Assembly: GCA_903849645.1 (NCBI GenBank)
Contig: CAINJJ010000036.1
Location: 1-64,000, forward strand
Direction: 5' to 3'
Length of the DNA: 64,000 nt
DNA from: an uncultured Acidobacteriaceae bacterium
GTDB taxonomy: Bacteria > Acidobacteriota > Terriglobia > Terriglobales > Acidobacteriaceae
Below, piece by piece: positions 1 to 47,790 of the stretch; the stretch's first letter is position 1; the number at the start of each line of letters is the position of its first letter. Below the pieces are notes generated by a model, which saw nothing but the letters and a program-made list of their open reading frames with translations, was not told the origin of the DNA and made no database searches. The translations under genes and the position numbers were made by a program.

Positions 1-139
1 GATGGTGATGCCCGGCGACAACGTGCAGCTTGTGATTGAGCTGATCACGCCGGTGGCTCTGGAAAAGGGACTCCGGTTTGCGATCCGCGAAGGCGGCCGC
101 ACGGTGGGCGCAGGCACGGTTTCTGAGATTGTGAAGTAA
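1..139 (+). CDS. tuf: Elongation factor Tu, C-terminal end (truncated by window start)
   Basis: Frame from nt 2 reads [45 protein letters not shown], the EF-Tu C-terminus; followed by rpmG, tRNA-Trp, secE, nusG. Confidence 0.95.
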
Positions 140-140
140 G

Positions 141-240
141 GAAGACAGTGAAGGAAGTGAAACCGTGAAGAAGTGAAACAGTGAATCGGCAAGGCGCAGG
201 TTGTTCACTGATTCACTTTTTCACTGAATCACTTCCTTAC
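141..240. repeat. Two-arm inverted short-period repeat between tuf and rpmG
   Basis: Left arm has gtga at 148,157,165,173,181; right arm has tcac at 205,213,221,229 (8-bp steps). Arms are in inverted orientation. Confidence 0.7.
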
Positions 241-261
241 TGAAGTTGAAAGGATTTTGAA

Positions 262-411: not shown

Positions 412-413
412 CG

Positions 414-528
414 ACAGTGGTCAGTGAACAGGGCACAGTGGTCAGTTAGGGTCTTGGCTGGTTAGTCAATCAGGCTGCACTCGGAAGAAAGAAACTGATC
501 ACCGTCCACTGATTACTGTTCACTGCCT
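414..528. repeat. Two-arm inverted heptad repeat between rpmG and tRNA-Trp
   Basis: Left arm acagtgg|tcagtga|acagggc|acagtgg|tcagtta (414-448); right arm accgtcc|actgatt|actgttc|actgcct (501-528), same motif on the opposite strand. Confidence 0.7.
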
Positions 529-2341: not shown

Positions 2342-2917
2342 ATGGAATTCACGATCAGCGAGCTGGAACAGGAACCGATAGAGTTTGAACTGGAGTTGGC
2401 GCCGGGGGCGGTGGATCTGGGCCAGGAGGCGGAGCAGGAAGGTCCCCTGGCGGCCAGTGGGCAGGCGGAGGTGCTGCACGAGCACCGGGGGCCCAAGGAC
2501 ATTGTGGCCGACATCCGGCTCAAGGGGCACTTTGCGGGGAAGTTCCAGGTGCCGTGCGCGCGGTGCGTGGAGCCGGTGCTGCTGCCCATCGCGGCGGACT
2601 TTGACCTGATTTTCAGGCCGGCGGCGGCGGATGCGGAGGCCACGGAGCGTTCGATAACGGCGCAGGAGACAGAAATCGGTTATTATCAAGAGGACAGTCT
2701 TTCGCTTGAGGATGTGCTGCGCGAGCAGGTGCTTTTGTCTCTGCCGGTCAGAACGCTATGCAAGCCGGACTGCAAGGGACTTTGCCCGCGCTGCGGTGAA
2801 AACCGCAACAGCCAGACGTGCAACTGCGAAGTGGGTCCGAGCGACCCCCGCTGGGAAGCGCTGGCCGGACTCCGCGGCCGGTTGGAGTCCAAGGACAACA
2901 GCCCCAAGAGAAATTGA
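2342..2917 (+). CDS. DUF177 (YceD-like) protein, predicted 23S rRNA accumulation factor
   Basis: VPCARCVEPVLLPIAADFDLIF...REQVLLSLPVRTLCKPDCKGLCPRCGENRNSQTCNC, immediately before rpmF. Start taken as ATG 2342; upstream ORF-track extension overlaps the terminator and rplK. Confidence 0.88.
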   Translation: MEFTISELEQEPIEFELELAPGAVDLGQEAEQEGPLAASGQAEVLHEHRGPKDIVADIRLKGHFAGKFQVPCARCVEPVLLPIAADFDLIFRPAAADAEATERSITAQETEIGYYQEDSLSLEDVLREQVLLSLPVRTLCKPDCKGLCPRCGENRNSQTCNCEVGPSDPRWEALAGLRGRLESKDNSPKRN

Positions 2918-3011
2918 AGGTGCTGAAGCCCGTGCCGCAAGGCAGCCGGGACCCCGCATGGCCAAAGCGGCCGGGGACCGGGAGCGGGCCGAGACACGAA
3001 AGGAATTTGCC

Positions 3012-3200
3012 ATGCCTAATCCGAAGAGGCGCCACTCGACGCGCCGCACCGCACTTCGCCGCTCTCACGATTTTCTGACCGCCGTGGGCGTCTCCGAGTG
3101 CCCCAGCTGCCACGAAAAGAAGCTGCCGCACCAGGCCTGCCCCAAGTGCGGGGCGTACAAGGGCCGCGCGGTTCTGGACATCAAGGAAGCAGCCAAGTAA
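3012..3200 (+). CDS. rpmF: 50S ribosomal protein L32
   Basis: MPNPKRRHSTRRTALRRSHDFLTAVGVSECPSCHEKKLPHQACPKCGAYKGRAVLDIKEAAK; CxxC pairs; between yceD and plsX. Confidence 0.95.
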   Translation: MPNPKRRHSTRRTALRRSHDFLTAVGVSECPSCHEKKLPHQACPKCGAYKGRAVLDIKEAAK

Positions 3201-4679: not shown

Positions 4680-6692
4680 TCACGGCACGATGCGCAGGAT
4701 TGCATGCACATGCAGATCCGGCAGGATGCCGTGCCAGTGGCCGTCTTTGTATGCGCCCGACAGGACCGTGGCTCCCGGATCGAGGATCACCGCGGAGGGC
4801 TTGGCGGCGAGGCGGATGCGGAGCGGGATGGGGCCGGTGGCAGGCACGATCCCGCTGTGGCGGAACTGGCCTGTGACGGGTGCGCCGGCGGTGTTGACCA
4901 GGTGGATGAGGGTCTGTCCGTTCTTGACGCGGAGCACAATTTCCAGCTCGGGGTGGGCCCCATCCAGTCGAACCATGGGGGCGCGCAGCGACTCGAGCAG
5001 GGGGCGCAGGACGGAGCGCAGGACGGGCGAGTTCGCGCCGGCATGGAGCGAGGCCAGGGGACCGGGGCAGACGAGGACCTCGCCCTTGCCGCGAGGCTGA
5101 CGAACGGCGAGCGGGAGAGCGTCCAGGCGCGCATCGGGTGAGCGCCAGGCCTGGGCAGCCAACTGGGCAGGCGCAGCTTCAAGCTCGATCCAGTTGCCGG
5201 GAGCCTCGGCAAAGCCGGAGTCATCGGCGACGAAGAGCGTCTGCTGGGCTGCTGGGCTCTTGATTTGGAGGCCAAGGGCGGGGGCGAAGAGGGCGGCGTT
5301 GTCCGCGCCGAAGGTGAAAAGCCTTCCGCCTTCCGCCGCGTACTTTACGAGCGCGGAGAGTGCCTCCGGGCCGATGTCGCTCCAGTCGGGGAGAACGACG
5401 AGGGGATAGCGGGCGAGGGATTCGGCGGCCTGCCAGTCGGGGATGAGATCGACAGAGTAGCCGCAGGCGAGGAGCAGGTCAACAGCTCCGGCGGCGGGGT
5501 CTTCGGCCGCGCCCCAGCCGCCAAAGGGACGGTTGGCGGTGCGATAAAGGGTGCGGCCGGAGTAGAAGACACCCGCTTCCGGCAGGGTTTCAGAGCCATG
5601 GGACCAGAGCTGGCGCTTGCGGCAAAAGCCCGCCACTTCGGCCCCGGTGGCGACGATGCGGTCATCGATCCATCCGGCGCGAGTGGGGACGTAGTAGATC
5701 TGGTAGCCGCCGCCCTGGGCGAGGACGATGGCTGCCTCCTGTTCGAGCTCGACGGCTGGCTTGGCGGACTGGCGCTGGAAGTGCTCGTCGGACTCGAAGC
5801 CCCAGGACATCAGATCCCAGGGCTTGCCGCAGCGGGAGAGATAGCGGGCCTGAATGCGGGCCTGGCGGAGCGCGGCTTTATCCGCAATGTCGCCGGAGAG
5901 GTAGTCGAGCGGCAGGGTGGGGCGCTCGGGGGCAAAGGTGGAGTACATCCAATTGCTGGTGATCTGGTAGCCGGGGCGGGCGCGGTGCAGGGCGTCGGCG
6001 TAGCGGGCGACGTATTGGCGGAAGGCTTCGCGCTGCAGTTCAAGGAAGTCCAGCCAGCCGGGGTCTTCAGGCTTGCGGGGCAGCGCGGCCAGGCCCGTCT
6101 TCCGCTGGAAGGCCTGGCGGGCGGGCTCTGAGTAGTCGGGCTGCACGGCCCAGGCGTCGCCATCGACCCAGGATCCGTCGAGGTCGTAGTTGACGGCTGC
6201 TTCAAGCAGCTCGGGAATCATCAACTGCTGCTCGTAGGGGCCGAAGAGGCTGGTCTGCTGCGGGTCGGGCCTGCCGTCGGGACCAACGCGCGCCCAATCG
6301 GGGTGCCGGGCCGCCGCGAGGCCGTCGAGGACACCGGAGAAGTGGTTGTAGAGGGCGACGCCGCGCGCGGCGGTGACGCGCCGCCAGAGCGCGAGCGAGT
6401 CCTGGACGATGCCGGGGGCGGAGTTGCCTGTTTTGGAGGGAAAGCCGAGGTAGCCGGGGTGGCCCTTCGAGTCGTACTGGATGAAGTCGGGTCCGCAGCG
6501 GTCGAGGAGGCGCGCGATCATCTGCTCGGTCAGGTCGCGGCCGAGGGCGGTATCTTCGGCGGTAGGGTGGAGGTCGAAGTGGAAGCCAAAGAAACAGTCC
6601 TTGCGGGCAGGGCGCGCAGGCGCGGCGAGGGCAGGGGGAACGAGGGTGGCAGCGGCGGCTGCGGCAAGAAACTCGCGGCGGGAAACCTGCAT
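4680..6692 (-). CDS. TAT-exported putative glycoside hydrolase with beta-galactosidase-trimerisation-like domain
   Basis: N-term MQVSRREFLAAAAAATLVPPALA (TAT-like); TIM-barrel-like region FGFHFDLHPTAEDTALG...DLDGSWVDGDAWAVQPDYSEPA; GATase-like YPLVVLPDWSDIGPEALSALVKYAAEGGRLFTFG. Family uncertain. Confidence 0.55.
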   Translation of the reverse strand: MQVSRREFLAAAAAATLVPPALAAPARPARKDCFFGFHFDLHPTAEDTALGRDLTEQMIARLLDRCGPDFIQYDSKGHPGYLGFPSKTGNSAPGIVQDSLALWRRVTAARGVALYNHFSGVLDGLAAARHPDWARVGPDGRPDPQQTSLFGPYEQQLMIPELLEAAVNYDLDGSWVDGDAWAVQPDYSEPARQAFQRKTGLAALPRKPEDPGWLDFLELQREAFRQYVARYADALHRARPGYQITSNWMYSTFAPERPTLPLDYLSGDIADKAALRQARIQARYLSRCGKPWDLMSWGFESDEHFQRQSAKPAVELEQEAAIVLAQGGGYQIYYVPTRAGWIDDRIVATGAEVAGFCRKRQLWSHGSETLPEAGVFYSGRTLYRTANRPFGGWGAAEDPAAGAVDLLLACGYSVDLIPDWQAAESLARYPLVVLPDWSDIGPEALSALVKYAAEGGRLFTFGADNAALFAPALGLQIKSPAAQQTLFVADDSGFAEAPGNWIELEAAPAQLAAQAWRSPDARLDALPLAVRQPRGKGEVLVCPGPLASLHAGANSPVLRSVLRPLLESLRAPMVRLDGAHPELEIVLRVKNGQTLIHLVNTAGAPVTGQFRHSGIVPATGPIPLRIRLAAKPSAVILDPGATVLSGAYKDGHWHGILPDLHVHAILRIVP

Positions 6693-7322: not shown

Positions 7323-7499
7323 TTAGCGGCGGCTGTGAAAAGGGCGGACGATGAGCAGGGCAAAGGCCACGGCCAGGGCGAAGGCGAGGGCGAGGAAGCC
7401 AAAAAGAAGTTTGAGACTGGGGCCGGGAGAGGGTTCGTCCGGCTCCTGCCTGGCGGGAGGGGATGCGGGGGCGGGGGGCAGAATCTCCGGATCATTCAT
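7323..7499 (-). CDS. 58-aa single-TM small protein overlapping the ABC permease stop (not in the ORF track)
   Basis: Reverse strand reads MNDPEILPPAPASPPARQEPDEPSPGPSLKLLFGFLALAFALAVAFALLIVRPFHSRR*; start overlaps the permease stop as ATGAATGA. Confidence 0.5.
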   Translation of the reverse strand: MNDPEILPPAPASPPARQEPDEPSPGPSLKLLFGFLALAFALAVAFALLIVRPFHSRR

Positions 7500-8766
7500 A
7501 TTTCAGGGACTCCACGGGGTCCATCTGGGCGGCGCGGGTGGCGGGTACGGTGCCGAAGACCACGCCCACCAACAGGGCCGAGGCAAGGGCGATGAGCACC
7601 GACCAGCCGGAGATGGGCAGGGCGTAGTCGGTGAAGAAGCGGATGGAGAGGGGCACGCAGAGGCCGACAAAGGTGCCCACGATGCCTCCGGCAAGGGAGA
7701 TGATGACGGCTTCGGCCAGGAATTGCAGCTTGATTTCGCGGTAGGTGGCGCCGAGGGCCTTGCGGATGCCGATCTCGCGGATGCGGGAACGGACGTTGGC
7801 CAGCATGATGTTCATGATGCCGACGCCGCCTACGGCGAGGGTGACGGCCGCAACCAGCACGAGAACCGCGGTGAGGGCGTTGGCGATGACCTCGGCGGTG
7901 GTGAGCAGTTCCTTGAGGTTCTGCGCGTGGTAAACGGAAGCCGGCTTGTGGCGCGAGGTGATGACGCGGAGGACCTCGCGGGTGGCGTCTGGCACCTCTT
8001 CCATGCTGCGCACGGAGAAGTAGAGCTGCTTGACCGAGTCAGTGCCAGTGAAATAACGGGCGACGGAGTAGGGGATCAGGATGGTCTGGTCGGAGATCTC
8101 GGTCTGGCCGAAGGTGTCGACGCTCTCCTTGAAGGTGCCGACGATGGTGAAGGGGATGCCGGTGATCTGGAAGGTCTGCCCGATGGCGGAGTCCGAGGAG
8201 CCGAACATCTCGCGGGCAAATGGCTCTGTAACGACGGCGCACTTGATGTGGGCGTTCTCGTCTTCGTCGTCGATGGAGCGGCCGCTGAGAACGATGAGGT
8301 TGCGGACGTCCTTGTACTGAGAGCTGACGCCGAGGACGAGCGTGTCCTTCACCACGCCGCCGCCGAAGCTGATGCGGTCATGGGTTTCAAGCACGGGTGA
8401 CGAAGCGAGAACGCTGGGGACCTGGGCGAGGACCGCCTTTTCGTCTTCGCGGGTGAGGTAGTCGTTGTAGAGCAGGCGCTCGGCGCCAGTGGCCCCGCCG
8501 CCGGAGTACTCGACCTCCACCTCGTTGGTGCCGATCTTTTGGATTTCGTTGAGAATGAACTGCTTGCCGGTGAGGCCGATGGTGACCACGAGGATGACAG
8601 AAGCTGTGCCGATGACCATGCCGAGGGCGGTGAGGGCGAAGCGGAGCTTGCTGGAGCGGAAGCTGTCAATGGCCAGCTTGAGAATCTCGCTCAGCAGCAT
8701 GGTGCGGCGCGCGCTGAGGAGCGTCTGCTGAAAAGCGTGATTGCGGGCCTGTTCGGTCTGGTTCAT
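7492..8766 (-). CDS. ABC transporter permease, MacB/FtsX type
   Basis: ALTALGMVIGTASVILVVTIGLTGKQF...VGGVGIMNIMLANVRSRIREIGIRKALGATYREIKLQFLAEAVIISLAGGIVG...ATRAAQMDPVESLKYE. Confidence 0.93.
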   Translation of the reverse strand: MNQTEQARNHAFQQTLLSARRTMLLSEILKLAIDSFRSSKLRFALTALGMVIGTASVILVVTIGLTGKQFILNEIQKIGTNEVEVEYSGGGATGAERLLYNDYLTREDEKAVLAQVPSVLASSPVLETHDRISFGGGVVKDTLVLGVSSQYKDVRNLIVLSGRSIDDEDENAHIKCAVVTEPFAREMFGSSDSAIGQTFQITGIPFTIVGTFKESVDTFGQTEISDQTILIPYSVARYFTGTDSVKQLYFSVRSMEEVPDATREVLRVITSRHKPASVYHAQNLKELLTTAEVIANALTAVLVLVAAVTLAVGGVGIMNIMLANVRSRIREIGIRKALGATYREIKLQFLAEAVIISLAGGIVGTFVGLCVPLSIRFFTDYALPISGWSVLIALASALLVGVVFGTVPATRAAQMDPVESLKYE

Positions 8767-8776
8767 TCGTTCCTTA

Positions 8777-8832
8777 ACAGTGGACAGTGGACAGTGGACT
8801 AGGGACTAGGGACTAGGGACTAGGGACTAGTT
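8777..8832. repeat. Heptad array: 3 x acagtgg, 4 x actaggg, then actagtt
   Basis: Eight consecutive 7-bp units in phase; five CTAG tetranucleotides. Confidence 0.9.
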
Positions 8833-8930
8833 GGTAGATGCCTCAGAGGCGGCTGCGGTTCACTTTCGCGAGGAGCGTCGGGGGCTGTGGCCAATGGCAA
8901 TTTCCACCCACGTCTTAAGGACCGACTTGG

Positions 8931-8965
8931 CCCACTGCCCACTGTCCACTGTTCATTGTCCATCG
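8931..8965. repeat. Heptad array overlapping the 3' end of the S9 peptidase gene
   Basis: cccactg|cccactg|tccactg|ttcattg|tccatcg; inverted relative to 8777-8832; gene stop (tca at 8953-8955) lies inside a unit. Confidence 0.8.
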
Positions 8966-11088
8966 TACTTTTCCAGCCATTTGAGTTCTTCGCGGACCTT
9001 GATGTAGCCGTGCCAGGGGTTCTTGGCGAGCGGGTGGCCCTCGCCGGGAAAGGTGAGGAAGGTGTGCGGAATGCCGAGCGACTGCAGGGCGCGCTCCATC
9101 AACACCCCCTCCAGATAGCTTACGCGCACGTCGGCCCCGCCCTGAACAAGGTGGGTGGGGGTTTTTACCTTGTCGAAGCGGAAGAGGGCGGCTTCGTCCT
9201 GATAGAGGGCGGGGTTTTCCCAGGGGCGTCCGCCGAGATACCAGGCGTCGTCGCGGGTAAGGTCGTCGTTGCCCCAGTTGGCGGCGTGCTCCACGGCTCC
9301 GGCGCCAGTGACGGCGGACTTGAAGCGGGTGGTCTGGGTGATGAGCCAGTTGGTCATGTAGCCGCCGTAGCTGTAGCCGCCGATAGCGAGGTGGTCGGGG
9401 TCGGCGTAGCCGTCCTTGACCAGGGCATCGACGCCGGCGAGGATGTCGCGGCCGGGTTTGGAGACCAGGTGGGGCTGGATGCCGAGCATGAAGTCGTCGC
9501 CGTAGCCGACGGAACCGCGGTAGTTGGGGCGAAAGACCAGCCAGCCGTTGGCTGCGGCCAGGGTGGCCCAGTCATACCAGTTGGCGCCGAAGCGGTCGCC
9601 ATCGGCGTCGGCGGGCCCGCCATGGATGAAGGTGAAGAGGCGGAGATGCTTTGCGCCTTTCCTGCCGGGGGGAAAGATGAGGTGGCCCTCGACGGTGCGG
9701 CCGTCGTCGGCGGTCCAGATGTAGGGCTGGCCCTCGGGCTGGGCGCGCTCGGCAAAGAGGGGATTGAAGGCGGTGAGCGGGGTGAGCTTGTCAGGGTGGA
9801 GGGGGTCCGCGGCGAGGTAGACCTGGGTGGGCCTATTGAGAGAGGAGTGGCGGAGCAGCAGGGCAGAGCCGGAACGGGGCGCGTCAAGCGCGGCGTAGCT
9901 GCCGGGGAGGCCGGGGAGCCGGGTGACCTTTGCGCCTTCGACCAGATAAAGCTGCTCTTGAGTGCCCTGGAGGGCGGCGGCGATGAGGCGGCCATCGGGG
10001 AGCAGGGTGGAGTGGTCGAAGGAGCCCTGGAAGGCAGTGCCGAGGCGCTCGGGGGCGGCGGCCGCGCTGGCGGTGTCGAGCCGATAGAGCCGGCCCTGCA
10101 CGTCGCGGTAGGGGCCCTCAATGGAGCCGGCGGCGGCAGCGACCTCAAAGTGGAGCCAGCGGCTGCCGGGCGCCCAGCGGAGTTCGGATTCAGCGCCTTC
10201 ATTGCGGGTGAGCTGGCGGGTTTCGCCCCCGGCGGCGGGGACGAGGTAGATCTCGCAGTCGCCGGGGTTCTCGGTGCGGTGGTGGACGGGGCCGGTGACG
10301 AAGGCCAGGGATTTGCCATCGGGAGAGGGGGCGATCTCAGTGATGGAGAGGGCTGATCTTGAAATCGTTTCTACGCCGGGGGGCAGAGCGGCCGGGGCCT
10401 CCTTTTCAGAGGAATTGCCAGTTGCGGGGACCGGCTGTTTGGCGGGAGGCTCGACGGCCAGGGCGTGCTGAAGGGCCGGGGCAAGGGGGAGCTTGAGCAG
10501 CAGGTCGCCGCGGTGCTGCTCGCGCCAGCGGATGACGTCTTTCCACTCGGTTTTCTGCGCGTCCTGCTGTTCCGGGGACAGGGGTTCCGTGGCGGAGAAA
10601 TAGAGTGCTGCGCCGTCTGCGGACCAGGCGAAGGCGTGGACGTCGAGCTTTTCGCGGTAGAGGGGGAGGGCCTCGCCGCCGGCGACGGGGATGAGCCAGA
10701 GGCGGTCGGATTTGGCGGAGTCGCTCTCGGGTTCGCCGTCCGACGCGGCGGCCTCGCCGGGCAGGGCGCGGTCGGTGACAAAGGCGATCCATTTGCCGTC
10801 GGGGCTCCACTGGGGGCTCTCTTCGCTGCCGGAGTGGGTGAGGGGGCGCAGGCCGGAGGAGGCGGTCCACAGCCAGAGGTCATGGCGGAAGATGCTGTTC
10901 TTCCAGTCGGGCGACTCGGTGGCGATGACCGCGGCCGTGCCGTCGGGAGAGATGCGCGCATCGGTAATCTCGGTGGCGCTGAGGAACTCGTCGAGCGAGA
11001 TGGCGGGCCTGGCGGCCTGGGAGAGGGCGAGGGCCGGAAACAGGCAGGCGGCGGCTGCGAGGGCAACCCGGGAAAGGTGAGAGCGCAT
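8953..11088 (-). CDS. S9 family prolyl oligopeptidase-type peptidase, secreted
   Basis: Signal peptide, WD40-like TolB-type repeats, HGGPADADGDRFGANWYDW, catalytic GGYSYGGYMTNWLITQTTRFKSAVTGAG. Confidence 0.93.
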   Translation of the reverse strand: MRSHLSRVALAAAACLFPALALSQAARPAISLDEFLSATEITDARISPDGTAAVIATESPDWKNSIFRHDLWLWTASSGLRPLTHSGSEESPQWSPDGKWIAFVTDRALPGEAAASDGEPESDSAKSDRLWLIPVAGGEALPLYREKLDVHAFAWSADGAALYFSATEPLSPEQQDAQKTEWKDVIRWREQHRGDLLLKLPLAPALQHALAVEPPAKQPVPATGNSSEKEAPAALPPGVETISRSALSITEIAPSPDGKSLAFVTGPVHHRTENPGDCEIYLVPAAGGETRQLTRNEGAESELRWAPGSRWLHFEVAAAAGSIEGPYRDVQGRLYRLDTASAAAAPERLGTAFQGSFDHSTLLPDGRLIAAALQGTQEQLYLVEGAKVTRLPGLPGSYAALDAPRSGSALLLRHSSLNRPTQVYLAADPLHPDKLTPLTAFNPLFAERAQPEGQPYIWTADDGRTVEGHLIFPPGRKGAKHLRLFTFIHGGPADADGDRFGANWYDWATLAAANGWLVFRPNYRGSVGYGDDFMLGIQPHLVSKPGRDILAGVDALVKDGYADPDHLAIGGYSYGGYMTNWLITQTTRFKSAVTGAGAVEHAANWGNDDLTRDDAWYLGGRPWENPALYQDEAALFRFDKVKTPTHLVQGGADVRVSYLEGVLMERALQSLGIPHTFLTFPGEGHPLAKNPWHGYIKVREELKWLEKYDGQ

Positions 11089-47720: not shown

Positions 47721-47790
47721 CTCCCTCGGTCCCTGGTCCCTGTTTCCTATTGCCTATTGCCTATTGCCTAGTCCCTAAGTCCCCAGTCCC
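47721..47790. repeat. Heptad array filling the gap between DUF3467 and GT39 genes
   Basis: ctccctc|ggtccct|ggtccct|gtttcct|attgcct|attgcct|attgcct|agtccct|aagtccc|cagtccc; last base coincides with the DUF3467 stop (cta 47790-47792). Confidence 0.85.

Follow-up and report, generated by a model that had tools for sequence, protein, structure and literature searches.

Facing heptad-repeat arrays at intergenic gap edges in Acidobacteriaceae switch repeat family in both arms together

Between species of an acidobacterial genus, the two facing arrays of heptanucleotide repeats that frame an intergenic gap switch repeat family together while the stem between them is kept. We call such a pair of arrays a heptad bracket and describe its anatomy, its placement at gene edges, its CAG-first order, its lineage-specific insertion, the match in family between its arms, the switching of that family and its gain and loss of sequence in 7-bp steps. 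The description starts from the window, that is, the 64,000-nucleotide stretch of DNA at the start of contig C36 in the 4.54-Mb assembly of an uncultured Acidobacteriaceae bacterium. To our knowledge, heptads in bacterial gaps have been noticed for decades with no function attached to them.

The bracket between the S9 peptidase and MacB-like genes

At the window locus (Table 1), two arrays occupy the edges of the gap between an S9 peptidase gene and a MacB-like permease gene. The first-pass annotation had read eight in-phase heptads on the left and five of the same motif, on the opposite strand, on the right; both unit sequences and coordinates hold, and Tandem Repeats Finder reports period 7 in each of 8777-8799, 8796-8830 and 8932-8962. 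On the plus strand the right arm reads CCCACTG twice, then TCCACTG, TTCATTG and TCCATCG, and the TGA stop codon of the S9 gene (8953-8955, minus strand) does fall within a heptad, the fourth unit of this arm. The left arm precedes the MacB-like gene, and on that gene's coding strand it appears as TAGTCCC...CCACTGT ahead of AAGGAACGA-ATG. The arms had been described as inverted, which is true of them as facing arrays on opposite strands, but pairing is limited to the left arm's three ACAGTGG units, which alone find complementary sequence in the right arm; nothing there complements the ACTAGGG units. Folding of the sense-strand gap is predicted at -77.9 kcal/mol, compared with -61.2 +/- 4.3 for shuffles (z -3.9). 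The left arm contains five CTAG tetramers, as had been counted, in a genome that avoids this tetramer (190 seen versus ~820 expected in 0.79 Mb of the genome). Rfam gave no match at E up to 1 (8500-9200), and there were no promoter matches at the locus.

Table 1. Positions of the repeat arrays and neighbouring genes in the window
Feature	Coordinates	Strand	Description
tuf-rpmG gap bracket	131..244		7/8-bp units, GTGAAGAA... / TTCACTGAATCACTTT
rpmG to tRNA-Trp gap bracket	413..525		CAGTGRN arms; tRNA-Trp at 531-606
MacB-like permease gene	7492..8766	-	domains MacB_PCD, FtsX
Left arm	8777..8832	+	8 in-phase heptads, 56 bp: ACAGTGG x3, ACTAGGG x4, ACTAGTT
Spacer between arms	8833..8930		contains GCATC; probably the original S9-MacB gap
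Right arm	8931..8965	-	five heptads, minus strand CGATGGACAATGAACAGTGGACAGTGGGCAGTGGG; overlaps S9 stop codon
S9 prolyl oligopeptidase gene	8953..11088	-	
Single drifting heptad array	47728..47790	-	fills gap between two minus-strand genes; plus strand GGTCCCT, ATTGCCT, AGTCCCT

A stem placed between genes could be an intrinsic transcription terminator, and compact hairpins do occur in the convergent gaps of this genome, but we consider this reading of the brackets highly improbable. No terminator-like site was found in 8700-9000, the loops are large (median 45, about 134 at the S9-MacB locus), and the 3' arm abuts a ribosome site or a tRNA and is followed by no long T run; the large loop and the missing T run make a terminator unlikely at the window locus in particular.

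The S9-MacB gene order is shared by 12 syntenic relatives, with gaps of ~77-185 bp, and none of them has arms. In most of these relatives a GCATC motif lies ~21-30 bp (about 24) before the MacB start and is followed by an AGGA-like ribosome site, whereas in the window genome it lies 75 bp before the start, displaced by ~50 bp, with the 56-bp arm between GCATC and AAGGAACGA-ATG. The displacement, together with the armless relatives, indicates that the arms were inserted at both edges and that the spacer very probably represents the former gap, the short-motif match being good but not absolute. The GCATC before the MacB-like start (window spacer; L241, L248-L257, L260) is itself a possible leader or promoter element. 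Among the named genomes tested, the closest by its S9 peptidase is 'Acidobacteriaceae bacterium isolate bog_218', which aligns in two pieces at 82% and 67% identity. A second case comes from a gap that was assigned to nusG-rplK by position only: here arms of the TAGCT family enclose a loop whose sequence several relatives have conserved. This loop (AATTTTGGTG...AGCGTTCGCT...AACCGG in L269_209, L273_164, L276_92, L279_152, L274_299 and L280_132) is perhaps a ribosomal protein leader. A mobile element with its own body between terminal repeats was rejected as an identity for the bracket, the old S9-MacB core apparently having been retained, as judged from the same short-motif match.

Period, unit families, order and edge placement

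A period-7 scan and a comparison of intergenic with coding DNA, both suggested by the first-pass annotation, were carried out on 0.79 Mb of this genome and 0.4 Mb of a second one (G008). Windows matching at 12 or more of 14 positions were counted across 123 kb of intergenic sequence; there were 198 at lag 7 and 118 at lag 14, 43 and 64 at lags 8 and 16, and 0-5 at lags 9, 10, 11 and 13; autocorrelation in coding DNA peaked chiefly at multiples of 3, the 7/14 peak being generally absent from it. The 7-bp tandem period is concentrated intergenically, as in the STRR-like class of heptanucleotide repeats, and we find a genome-wide feature with further loci, neither confined to one locus nor at the level of shuffled sequence. 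A search with CACTGNNCACTGNNCACTG gave 57 matches in the genome and 0 for the reversed control, and the reversed control of the CACTG heptad search was empty across the whole genus. Of the 60 nearest genomes, 38 contain three linked CACTG heptads. When each species was represented by one genome, the scan found at least 116 stretches, and Acidobacteriota, Planctomycetota, Cyanobacteria, Chloroflexota, Bacteroidota, Verrucomicrobiota, Pseudomonadota and other phyla are represented among the matches listed.

The proposal that the period is conserved and the unit is not turns out to be half of the matter: units do change, but in the main families YAGNNNN is also kept on the CAG side, where CAGTGRW, CAGTTNT, TAGCTNY and YAGGGAN all fit it. 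CAGTGGA units contain no stops, which rules out three-frame stop traps. In the few cases available, array length changes by whole units, G010 and G004 differing by 14 nt (two units) in one arm and by 7 nt (one unit) in another; with two units lost on one side, the remaining stem is re-registered. Octad (period 8) arrays form a smaller set beside the heptads, and the octad brackets at window 131-244 and at G000:C9 9099-9136 / 9579-9640 (AGTGAAGA... / TTCACTTC...) have the edge placement and order of heptad brackets. Single arrays with no partner are common and count against the reading favoured below. In G000:C37 3906-4039, 19 in-phase heptads drift almost completely in unit, from TTGGTTC to CTGGTCC to CTAATCC and CACGTCC, and in G008 (L212, ~2856-3071 and 5110-5215) CCAAGGG / CCGAGGG heptads lie in the middle of long gaps, partly repeating every 95 bp.

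The order of the two arms is close to invariant. With R a CAGTG-type and Y a CACTG-type unit, both on one strand, R-R-gap-Y-Y matched 123 times in 22 of 60 relatives (the window's own genome being counted besides) and Y-Y-gap-R-R 0 times; overlapping registers inflate the 123 and leave the zero for the reverse order unaffected. A phylum sample of 297 genomes gave 84 CAG-first matches in 10 genomes versus one reverse-order locus, and among the matches listed from other phyla the counts are 20 versus 0. Looser units yielded 13 cases of apparent reverse order in the genus, 9 of which are the facing sides of adjacent brackets enclosing rpmG or tRNA-Trp. On the coding strand, arrays of the genus are CTG-type (Y) in 40 cases and CAG-type (R) in 1 near start codons, and CAG-type in 45 and CTG-type in 7 near stop codons; for other phyla, where gene calls were crude, arrays near stops still follow the rule (37:9) and at starts no rule is visible (18:18). 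Unpaired arrays also have an orientation bias, 21:1 at starts and 24:7 after stops, and the latter, which pairing does not explain, counts against a hairpin as the explanation. The weak enrichment of arrays in co-directional gaps (45/370 versus 15/201, p 0.09) likewise counts against a hairpin that separates cistrons.

The first-pass annotation knew of no characterised family of this kind, a statement that was too broad: relatives exist in Xanthomonas, Nostoc, Beggiatoaceae, cyanobacteria and Bacteroidetes (PMC4692102, PMC4679880, PMC4476775). The GGGAATC heptads of Xanthomonas are ~90% intergenic and mostly <=50 bp from gene ends (Rehm et al. 2015, PMC4692102). They frequently form facing pairs on opposite strands, the pair type being preserved between species, and in Xanthomonas and Nostoc alike the repeats following a stop are on the coding strand and those preceding a start on the non-coding one; few facing pairs are reported for Nostoc GGGGA(C/T)T (PMC4692102). 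Our arrays resemble GGGAATC in being intergenic heptads at gene edges and in forming facing pairs, and the Xanthomonas-type architecture, though only the architecture, recurs here as opposite-strand arrays with the G-rich/CAG side first. Their words are different, and GGGAATC forms G-quadruplexes and has no reported two-arm word switching, whereas most families here cannot form G-quadruplexes.

G-quadruplex or i-motif elements, as in Xanthomonas and Nostoc, could be formed by the four GGG runs in the four ACTAGGG units of the left arm, and possibly by YAGGGAN, but the usual units CAGTGRW, CAGTTNT and TAGCTNY build an identical architecture with no three-G run. Most arrays do not have four G-tracts of >=3, ACTAGGG-type units alone qualifying, and the absence of GGG from most families argues against the G-quadruplex as the general reason for the architecture, leaving such elements a very slim prospect as its cause.

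Cyanobacterial STRRs are degenerate tandem heptanucleotide repeats in gaps. They and Nostoc GGGGA(C/T)T share with our arrays the degenerate gap heptad and related words and differ in that two-arm switching is not reported there; STRR proper was not found, words and phylum being different, and CACTGNY occurs also in some cyanobacteria among the matches listed. REP and REPIN elements are likewise hairpins between genes, dispersed copies of one palindromic sequence, an identity that we rejected for the brackets, whose loop is not spread through the genome and whose word turns over between loci. TAACTGA repeats of Beggiatoaceae, cyanobacteria and Bacteroidetes are mostly direct and upstream of starts (PMC4679880). 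They resemble our arrays as intergenic heptads with 7-nt length differences between strains and a reverse complement, TCAGTTA, that is similar to CAGTTNT; unlike here, related heptamers are rare and there is one indirect repeat only in that genome (PMC4679880).

Both arms switch repeat family together

Orthologous gaps were taken from the tuf-rpmG-tRNA-Trp-secE region. In the rpmG-tRNA-Trp gap, nearly every one of 26 genomes has a stem, built from a differing repeat word (CAGTG, CAGTT, TAGCT, CAGGG/TAGGG or TAGTTCG), which suggests that the bracket is maintained. The arms of this gap pair at a mean of -43.4 kcal/mol, compared with -24.4 when they are swapped between genomes, and agree in family in 17 of 22 cases (4.9 expected); 0 of 20000 permutations reached the observed pairing sum and 0 of 10000 the family concordance, counts that are not strict probabilities because related species share changes by descent. 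The tree of secE-nusG-rplK, on which the repeat family of this gap changes at least 8 times, addresses part of this dependence. In the tuf-rpmG gap, arm families agree in 7 of 11 cases versus 3.1 expected. When the arms of two adjacent gaps in one genome are exchanged, they pair less well than the true arms in 18 of 19 comparisons, or in 16 of 19 if a symmetric DNA score is used. A related behaviour is known from the Nostoc trnL(UAA) intron, whose P6b stem consists of complementary seven-nucleotide repeats of Class I or Class II, changes length by 7 nt and has switched class repeatedly with the stem kept (PMC4476775); that is a single stem in one group I intron, whereas here the switching involves many intergenic gaps in many genomes.

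Switching of this kind bears on the idea that the repeats, when single-stranded, are bound by a protein that recognises RNA or DNA (of the cold-shock, S1 or CsrA type), as proposed for TAACTGA. Arrays at edges near starts and the CspB heptad binding discussed in PMC4679880 fit such a role, but a sequence-specific site would not allow the word to change across orthologous gaps with complementarity kept, and the word found on the coding strand ahead of starts is the opposite of the one found behind stops; we regard such a role as very unlikely.

Arms and loop may also have been replaced, or spread between gaps, by copying at the DNA level through recombination or template switching, as a mutational by-product or as mildly selfish DNA. 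Sister species G009 and G001 differ in both arms and in the loop, arm matching persists on the strand-symmetric score, and whole-region replacement has been inferred for the Nostoc P6b stem (PMC4476775). In a further genome, G019 (L288), the tuf-rpmG, rpmG-tRNA-Trp and tRNA-Trp-secE gaps carry related hairpins with a common loop segment, CGTGCANATGSAAGCCG; arms common to all three gaps and related loops (92% over 25 bp) point to copying between neighbouring gaps. This loop is, however, confined to one operon, with few, near-background and mostly one-mismatch matches elsewhere; at S9-MacB and nusG-rplK older core sequence apparently survives inside the bracket, which points to arms being added and not to whole units being inserted; and unit order differs between arms. 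DNA copying seems to us an unlikely account.

If the stem were selected base by base as RNA, a strong excess of G-U over A-C mismatches would be predicted. When 67 heptad stems from co-directional gaps were oriented by transcription, mismatches of the G-U type numbered 106 and those of the A-C type 95 (p 0.48), with no compensation, which counts against such selection. Nor was the order of unit variants matched between arms in an unbiased register test (mean rank 0.456 +/- 0.038, n = 34). Arm pairing in gaps was assessed by inverted-repeat alignment, duplex-energy z-scores on 90-nt gap ends having low power. By these counts the brackets do not belong with functional RNA stems under base-pair selection, and selection for an RNA hairpin is not proven. 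The arms agree in family core and not base by base, a pattern that fits arrays being turned over whole better than it fits stepwise compensation and that keeps both DNA copying and neutral slippage in play.

Slippage, pairing and a possible role between cistrons

We tentatively favour the reading that brackets are built by slippage, kept for their pairing, and act in transcripts as cistron separators recognised by shape. In a bracket, two tandem arrays with a 7-bp step lie at both edges of a pre-existing gap, their CAG-type units pointing away from each gene; either strand then runs CAG-units, spacer, CTG-units and can fold into a long stem with the old gap as its loop. The arrays would grow by replication slippage. 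A gap with one family in both arms may be favoured because any register pairs, so that gain or loss of units leaves the stem intact. In the transcript of a co-directional gene pair the stem might separate the cistrons, as a putative shape-recognised processing site of the RNase III type or as a barrier to 3' exonucleases. The order may be fixed because CTG-type units before a start add neither Shine-Dalgarno-like GGA nor GTG starts; with pairing, CAG-type units would then be required after the preceding stop.

A close rival, and next after this reading, is neutral or near-neutral slippage, by which arrays would survive in the unconstrained strips at gene edges only in the orientation harmless to translation and 3' ends, each pair growing from one local seed and its pairing having no function. 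We hold it to be doubtful but a serious possibility. It accords with the absence of base-pair compensation, the unmatched unit order, the 7-bp length steps between close relatives and the passage of single arrays through the same orientation filters (24:7, 21:1). It also accords with the abundance of heptads, which are the most frequent of the longer repeats in many genomes and have been linked to slippage over a polymerase footprint (Mrazek, as cited in PMC4679880 and PMC4692102). More than slippage seems to be needed for repeated concerted switches of two arms at one gap and for the near-total lack of reverse-order pairs, and the presence of the rpmG-tRNA-Trp bracket in nearly all of the 26 genomes speaks for maintenance. 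Extending the cistron-separator reading to several phyla, as insulation of genes by CAG-first brackets at gap edges that is free of sequence, the word being replaceable on both sides, the stem kept and the period tolerant of slips, is rather unlikely on what we have seen.

Heptads as such, their arrangement in facing pairs and a stem made of repeats that switches class had each been described before (PMC4692102, PMC4679880, PMC4476775). What appears new is the set of families in Acidobacteriota, an order that stays strict from phylum to phylum, arms that frame gaps already present, and switching in concert at orthologous gaps, and we found no description of heptad families, their order or their switching in Acidobacteriota in the open-licence literature. 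The CAG-first order, the edge rule and the two-arm switching are hard constraints on any explanation, neutral or functional, and the rpmG-tRNA-Trp gap provides a natural series of variants for direct tests.
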